Below, piece by piece: positions 31,701-34,700 of a stretch of DNA of 64,000 nucleotides. The notes under the pieces were generated by a model that was not told the origin of the DNA, did no database searches, and was given only the letters and a program-made list of their open reading frames with translations. Both the position numbers and the translations under genes were made by a program. Within the stretch, counting starts at the first letter, position 1. Every line of letters starts with the position of its first letter. The stretch is from Lagopus muta (Eukaryota > Chordata > Aves > Galliformes > Phasianidae). Location of the stretch: assembly GCF_023343835.1 (NCBI RefSeq), contig NC_064437.1, forward strand, positions 42,185,967 to 42,249,966, given 5' to 3'.

Positions 31701-34700
31701 CCCTGTGTGCCAGCCTCAGTGCATGGATGCACCATCCTCTGTGTGTCAGGAGCACAGGATATACACTGAGCATCTATGCAGTTTGACTGTATGTTCTTCA
31801 GTGGCTTTACATTGCCAGTGCCTTGGTCAGCTAAAATTCTAAATGTGGTTCCAGTGTAACAATAAAGCCAGTGCCCTTTGCTTTGGTAAGAAGTGTCTGT
31901 CATCTCCTTAAGAATAGCTCCTTATAAATTATGGTTTTGAAGAAAACCCTTGTTGCTCCACGATGTCTGAAATGTTTCTCAGTTCAGCTGGTGGTTTAGA
32001 GGGCTTCTCCACTAGCACGGATTAGAAAAGTTGAAGAGCTACAAAATTTAATTCACGATAAAGAACACAAGTTGTGCCACAGCCAGGAGGCCCAGGCTTC
32101 ACCAGGTGACTAGCTCTCCTCCATCTACTTGCCCGTGCAAAGTCAAAGTGGGGTTCATACTGTCCTCCCACTCCATAATTTGCCACCTGAAAAAGAGAAA
32201 CATAGCACTTGTGAAGAAGAAAGAGGTGGAGACAGGAAACAGGACTTACCCTTCCAAAATCAAAATGAGGCTCATATTGGCCTCCTACTCCGTAGTTGGC
32301 TACCTACAGCGAAAGGAGAAGCACAAAATCTAGTAAAGCTACTTTATCCAGACAAGAAAGGTCAAGAATTTGACTGTCAATTACAGCCTTTTGATAGATG
32401 GGGTTTCATAATTAAGCTATAAGAAATCACAAGTCTCTGTCAGATGAAATGTACCATGCTCCTGGAAGCCACACTGGCTTTATTCACAAATTAATCAGAC
32501 TTCACTGAGACATTCTTTTTCACACCAACGAGTCCCTTCCCCGTCCTCCAGGGCAGAAAAATACTTTTTCTCTGTAGAAACATTATTGGCAATATTCCTT
32601 TCCAAATAGCTTGTATCATTCAAATCTAAATCACTTTTTGACCCCTACGTCATTTTCACATCTCTTTCTCCTCTTCCTTGCATCTACTGTCAATTTTCAG
32701 CTAGGTGCTTGGACATTTTATCACCAGGAGGCTTGAGGAAGGGCTCCACCAGTATAAATAAAAAGAAATTACATTCATTCCGATAAACATTGTTTGGTTA
32801 TTCCCTGCAGCAGCAACGAACTATTTCACACTACAGCAAGTGCTACTCTGCAATGACAACTGCTTCTACCCCCCTGTGAAGAATAACAGTAATTCTTCTC
32901 CTGATCTTAGATCCAACCAGACACCAACTTAGCTGGCCCCGGATGTAACGAGTGTCTGTGACAACCTCCCAGACAGGAGCACTGTTCTACATGCACTGCC
33001 ATCCAAAATGAAGAGCACAATACTTGTGGAAGTCAGTCACTCACCTGAAGTTCCTCTGCTGTGGAGACATCAAGCCCTGTTAAGTCCTGTATCCTGGTGT
33101 TAATGCGAGACACCACAGGGCTTTCATATCCAGACAACCAAGCACTGAGTGGAAAAAAACCAATACATGACTAAAATATGGTAGAAATAGCCAGTAGGCT
33201 ATCAGTGCAGGTGCTATATTTGGGATTGCTTCAAGTTTGAGAATATCTTTTGTAGCTTGCAAAAATTTGGTAGGTCAATCAGAAATATTTCCAAGAGCTG
33301 CATACAACAAATCTGTTCTGGAGAACACTTAGGATCCTGGTTAAAGGCAGCTCTAAACCTAAGGGCCTTACTCCCCACGTGGGACCATCAAGTGATGCAA
33401 GAAAGGGTTCCCAACAGTGACCTTTGGTTCAAGCTGTGTCTCTAAAACAGGCACACTACAGTTCTGCTCTTACCCGTTCCAAACAGGTAATTTAGACCGC
33501 CCATTTGATGCAGCAGTTGGGAAAAGAAGAAGTAAATTACTTTAGCATGCACAGGTTCTATGTGAACAGAACTCAGCTCTTCTACATGTCACCATCCACT
33601 CACAGGTGAGTGCTGTGCATTCTGTCTACTCACGTTACTTACCTGTGCAATGATACTAAACATCATTATGAAAACAAGTAATGCGTAAAACACTTCCTTT
33701 CCCCTGTTGAACAATTTCTACTGAAACAGCCTACCACAAATGTGGTATTCAGAACATTTGAGGAAGTGATTTTTAAGGGAGAAAAGTATATATATTTTTA
33801 TAGATATGAAAAGTCAGCCTCAGAGTTTCAAAGACATCTTTAAACATCTTCTGTTGGTAAATCAGGCATCGGTGTACCAACATCAGCATCCCAAGGCTCA
33901 GCAGTGGCTGCTGCTGCTTTTACAAGACTGTTGGACCGAAACACCTGTGCACAGTGCCTGGCTGCTAATAGCATCATAGATCTGCTATAAAAATGAACTC
34001 TCCTCGAGTCTACGATAAAGGTTGGTTTGCTTTCATCTAAAAATTTGTATTTAAAAAAACAAAACAAAACACCAAAACGTTGTGTTGGAGGAAGGGTAGC
34101 ATGACACGTGACAAGACACTGACACAGGTTACAGAATCTCTACGAGCATGGATTTTTTTGAAAGAAAAAATGAACCAGATGTAAATGACTTGCACAAATA
34201 CAAAGATTCATCTGCTTCTGCATACTGTTAGTATGTGTTACAAAGTGTTACAACGCAGCAGCCTTGGAGGTCAGGAGAAAGCAGACAGCATTACATGAAT
34301 TGCTTCCCAAAGAAGCAGCAGCGATGCAGAGCCATGCTTCGCAGCCACATGCAGGCAGCAGCCACAAGCACCGCACGCCCCACGCTGAGTTCATGCCCAG
34401 CAGCAGCCCCTGGAGCCCTCTGCCTAGTGTACCACACAGGCTTTAAGAAAAAAAGGAAAACAGCACCCTTCTGTACTATGCTGAGTATTTAAAACTGTGG
34501 CGGCTGCCCTGAGTCCTTCCCTGTGGCGAACACTGCTTCCTTCATGAAGTAAAACTGCAACACTTTTTGAAAATGAAATTAATTGTCCTGGGGTACAAAG
34601 GCAGCCTGACAGGTGGAGGACCCCGGGACCTGTCATCAGGCCATCCAGCATCAGACTTCACTCACTGGAGGATGTCCCGGCTCAAAAGACAGCCGTGAGC

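Follow-up and report, generated by a model that had tools for sequence, protein, structure and literature searches.

Two homologous 54-nucleotide exons of P4HA1 in Lagopus muta, separated by 63 nucleotides, as a likely second mutually exclusive pair of this gene

The window, a stretch of 64,000 nucleotides (nt) of the Lagopus muta genome (NC_064437.1, positions 42,185,967 to 42,249,966), carries on its minus strand an intact P4HA1 gene in which two homologous exons of 54 nt lie side by side. Stable collagen requires collagen prolyl 4-hydroxylase I. The coding span (28767..49726) runs from an ATG at 49726 to a stop codon at 28767, and in silico splicing yields 14 coding exons per mRNA and a protein of 536 amino acids. 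The exons were located with a human P4HA1 sequence, to which the gene product is closest. The full-length open reading frame contains the His-x-Asp...His arrangement, and its best solved relative is 7zsc (P4HA2). One genomic match was reported for the region of the exon pair. Rfam gave no matches within the window, and a generic repeat finder with a 40-nt minimum returned no families and did not pick up the pair.

The two copies, like all P4HA1 features given here, are on the minus strand. They sit between a constitutive upstream exon of 100 nt ending in ...DVSTAEELQ (33144..33045) and a single-copy downstream exon of 66 nt (KDEPDAF...; 30349..30284), which is the counterpart of the exon duplicated as 12a/12b in P4HA2. 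Exon B, the earlier in the transcript, occupies 32303..32250 and contains HFDFGR; exon A, the later, occupies 32186..32133 and contains HFDFAR. Both are of phase 0, and the 63-nt spacer between them covers 32187..32249. These coordinates and the spacing agree exactly with those of an earlier sequence-only reading of this DNA, whose codon count was also right: of the 18 codons 5 are identical, 12 differ silently and one (GGA/GCA) changes the amino acid. Overall 41 of 54 nt and 17 of 18 residues are the same. In a tblastn search of 22 kb the two copies were recovered with E values of 2.8e-11 and 1.8e-10, the next match having a value of 0.18. In each exon a pyrimidine-rich stretch precedes the AG acceptor (...cgctgtag in B, ...tttttcag in A). 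The donor of B is a strong GT (AGG/GTAAGT) and that of A is a GC (CGG/GCAAGT), a feature absent from the earlier reading; GC donors are described as overrepresented in alternatively spliced genes (PMC2490688). B and A are neighbouring homologous exons of equal length and phase with usable splice sites, which are among the properties by which a mutually exclusive pair is recognized.

In an alignment at HFDFSR of P4HA2, the catalytic loop, two of the three iron ligands and Arg435 fall within the 54-nt exon, which carries the iron-binding His-x-Asp. The Gly/Ala change falls at position 434 (P4HA2 numbering), adjoining Arg435, where human alpha(II) has Ser. From this alignment the switch would lie one residue before the substrate loop between strands beta-II and beta-III, and at such a hinge it might alter the flexibility of the substrate loop rather than iron binding.

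In silico splicing gave 536 amino acids whether B or A was included, 554 with both, 518 with neither, and 575 when the spacer was retained as part of a 171-nt B-spacer-A block; the natural stop is used in every case. This confirms the earlier statement that frame alone rules out neither skipping nor double inclusion. A shorter human P4HA1 isoform of 516 amino acids, 18 fewer than 534, might correspond to skipping of this exon. The spacer is free of in-frame stop codons, a point also absent from the earlier reading; 61% of its letter shuffles are open as well, so that its openness is expected by chance. Since skipping, double inclusion and spacer retention are all in frame, nonsense-mediated decay (NMD) cannot clear these errors. 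Enforcement by frame shift and NMD was rejected as both double inclusion and skipping of the 54-nt exons keep the frame, and U2/U12 incompatibility was rejected because the donors (gtaagt, gcaagt and gtgagt) are all U2-like by inspection.

We consider it likely that crowding keeps B and A mutually exclusive, making them a second such pair in P4HA1, and that a cell can probably use just one copy at a time. At 63 nt the spacer stands apart from the other introns of the P4HA1 model, none of which is shorter than 384 nt. Its best predicted branch point, within TTCAC, places the A at +38 from the donor of B and 25 nt before exon A; adenines occur in the spacer only from +3 to +47, except for that of the terminal AG. 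For the simultaneous assembly of U1 and U2, a limit of approximately 50 nt between donor and branch point has been published (PMC7969005), and 57 of 629 human mutually exclusive clusters (9%) were assigned to a steric class on a predicted distance of less than 50 nt (PMC5740500). In the present case the best predicted branch point falls within this distance of the B donor. Because no adenine beyond +47 is present except in the terminal AG, joining of B to A should be blocked whichever adenine is used, the exception being a non-adenine branch point. The U1 and U2 small nuclear ribonucleoproteins would not fit on 38 nt, or on 47 nt at most, so the donor of B could not be paired with A's branch site. 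With B-A joining blocked every mRNA would carry B or A. The choice could then be made by competition between B, which has the GT donor and is transcribed first, and A, which has the pyrimidine-rich acceptor and the GC donor, and might be tuned by splicing factors as for the neighbouring 71-nt pair.

Several points weigh against this interpretation. The sequence-only reading had described B-A joining as physically blocked; the spacer adenines, at most +47 apart from that of the terminal AG, favour this by inference, but the block is not absolute: among human introns as short as 37-65 nt, some do undergo splicing. Splicing evidence exists for 15 of 22 conserved human introns in this size range, and some of those that are not G-rich have normal branch sites (PMC4463651). 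The branch points were predicted with a simple motif score built on assumed frequencies, and just one of five other acceptors scored alike carried YTNAY at 18-45 nt from its exon. In the spacer of the P4HA2 pair, used as a control, the top adenines are at +55, +60 and +65, beyond 50 nt, though they sit very close to the acceptor, at distances of 13, 8 and 3 nt. The GC donor might signal decay of A.

The earlier proposal of an old duplication under protein-level constraint is supported. When copies carrying 13 random substitutions were simulated, none of 200,000 in each of six settings kept at least 17 residues, and the mean number of amino-acid changes was 7.9 to 8.4 across settings. Silent differences between B and A affect 12 of the 17 codons specifying the same residue. 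Across five other exons, P4HA1 and P4HA2 of the same genome show them at 56 of 92 such codons; comparison with the 12 of 17 gives a Fisher P of 0.59. At full saturation approximately 10 of 18 would be expected with the codon usage of P4HA1. At the 54-nt exon itself B differs silently from P4HA2 at 8 of 16 codons and A at 7 of 16, each copy being slightly closer to P4HA2 than the two are to one another. The silent sites of B and A are saturated, so the duplication is ancient and protein constraint has been kept on both copies. The split between P4HA1 and P4HA2 is usually attributed to an early vertebrate genome duplication. The silent counts are compatible with an exon duplication predating that split, though they are not proof of it, as 54 nt cannot settle the order. 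The intron sequences flanking B and A no longer resemble each other, equally good scores being reached by fractions of 0.41 and 0.24 of the shuffles. A recent duplication was rejected on account of the saturated silent sites; a duplicate created by the assembly on account of the 13 differences in 54 nt, the unlike flanks and the one reported genomic match; and a pseudogene on account of the open reading of 536 amino acids.

The pair could be mutually exclusive while being governed chiefly by competing RNA structures or by repressors (PTBP1, U2AF levels), the short spacer then being incidental. In mouse cells the 71-nt pair of P4HA1 does respond to U2AF1, PTBP1 and SRSF7 (PMC6821156), and the spacer (32187..32249) pairs with the downstream intron (32132..30350) at -58.2 kcal/mol, a value matched by one of 60 letter shuffles. 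This signal is a single shuffle comparison in one species that may reflect mere pyrimidine-purine pairing, pairing of the spacer with the upstream intron was equalled in 10 of 60 shuffles, and the spacer is already below the proposed steric limit; we regard it as unlikely that such control prevails. Also improbable, and marginally more so, is the use today of one copy alone, the other, presumably A, having recently lost function while still looking intact. The GC donor of A, where B has GT, is what speaks for it. Against it, A retains 17 of 18 residues, the frame, the acceptor and a GCAAGT donor that is consensus-like at +3 to +6, despite saturated silent divergence. Human P4HA1, moreover, reads FAR, like A.

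Most doubtful is the suggestion that splicing removes the spacer as an ultra-short intron, making B+A mRNAs (554 amino acids, with the strand doubled) ordinary, or that the 171-nt block is a single exon (575 amino acids). Both products stay in frame and human introns of comparable size can be spliced (PMC4463651), but 18 or 39 further residues would have to be accommodated in the strand that binds the metal, within a closed double-stranded beta-helix. Among 22 human ultra-short introns, 12 have G as their commonest base (PMC4463651), whereas the spacer has G at 8 and T at 29 of its 63 positions, G not being the commonest; and its open frame, as noted, is what chance would provide.

The known 71-nt pair of P4HA1 is intact in the window. 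The first exon (37292..37222) and the second (36104..36034) were identified by tblastn, splice sites and in silico splicing, and are 1117 nt apart; inclusion of both or of neither led in silico to a premature stop. In the genome search, exons of P4HA2 turned up on C17 and those of P4HA3 on C1, and stretches of 9.5 and 8.0 kb, respectively, were compared. P4HA2 has a single beta-II exon (HFDFSR) and a single hairpin exon, but the next exon is present in two copies, one of 60 nt (RPFDSTLKSEGNRLATFLNY; 4092..4033 of L014 on C17, minus strand) and one of 66 nt (3964..3899 of L014, minus strand). These are frame-neutral and are separated by a 68-nt spacer, retention of which would introduce stop codons. 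They match exons 12a/12b of human P4HA2. Alternative use of exons 12a and 12b is known in human (PMC9676403; PMC11285346). P4HA3 has a single copy of it, which is fused with the exon before it. Upstream of its catalytic exon (L015, approximately 3396..3904, minus strand) are repeated weak matches resembling APIDFGNKW, which suggests an intronic minisatellite.

A wider reading is offered as possible rather than probable. P4HA1 would be a gene with two mutually exclusive clusters, and combining either hairpin loop with either beta-II strand would allow four active sites. The ancient B/A pair might date back to the P4HA1/P4HA2 split or even predate it. The hairpin loop, the catalytic loop with the beta-II strand, and the beta-II/beta-III loop would all be duplicated as alternative exons across P4HA1 and P4HA2, B/A being the missing third. 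Lastly, both frame-neutral pairs would have been held independently at spacers of 63 and 68 nt. On this account the B/A pair would have been overlooked because its copies encode almost the same peptide. If true, a switchable iron-ligand exon that changes one residue at the root of the substrate loop would represent fine-tuning where invariance is expected. P4HA1 and P4HA2 also provide a small natural comparison, the frame-breaking pair lying far apart (1,117 nt) and the pairs that can be misjoined silently lying close (63 and 68 nt). This suggests a rule in which crowding is maintained where decay cannot remove mistakes; the pattern is drawn from three pairs and is a suggestion that carries no statistic.

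In the open-licence literature, to the extent consulted, the 54-nt pair was not found, only the 71-nt pair of P4HA1 (PMC5224494; PMC6821156) and the P4HA2 pair (PMC11285346); annotations of bird genomes may list it. The peptide strings of the pair gave no matches in open-licence papers, and a degenerate DNA pattern for orthologues gave none in genome-contig and viral-contig collections, which are without other vertebrate genomes. No P4HA term occurs in the main text of PMC5740500, and by its own account vertebrate genes with more than one mutually exclusive cluster were not on record before it.

Among known systems the 71-nt pair (human exons 9/10; 10a/10b in PMC5224494) is the nearest, being a tandem of homologous, equal-length exons in the same gene. 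It encodes the hairpin loop and has a 1117-nt spacer, while the 54-nt pair encodes the next active-site segment and has a 63-nt spacer. Double inclusion or skipping of the 71-nt exons breaks the frame because their length is not a multiple of three, whereas the 54-nt pair is frame-neutral. The 12a/12b pair of P4HA2, a paralogue in the same genome, is likewise frame-neutral (60/66 nt) with a short, 68-nt spacer, but the exon duplicated is a different one: P4HA2 has a single beta-II exon and P4HA1 a single KDEP exon. For OGDH exons 4a/4b, exclusivity is attributed to a size-restricted intron whose branch points lie 25-41 nt after the 5' splice site (PMC7969005); these are far from the acceptor, with a long pyrimidine tract, and the OGDH case was put to experimental test. 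The B/A pair differs in that its predicted branch point is an ordinary 25 nt from the acceptor and it is the whole intron which is short. With the steric class of PMC5740500 it shares the predicted donor-to-branch-point distance of less than 50 nt. In kind the 54-nt pair of P4HA1 would not be new, as mutually exclusive pairs of a steric class are already known.
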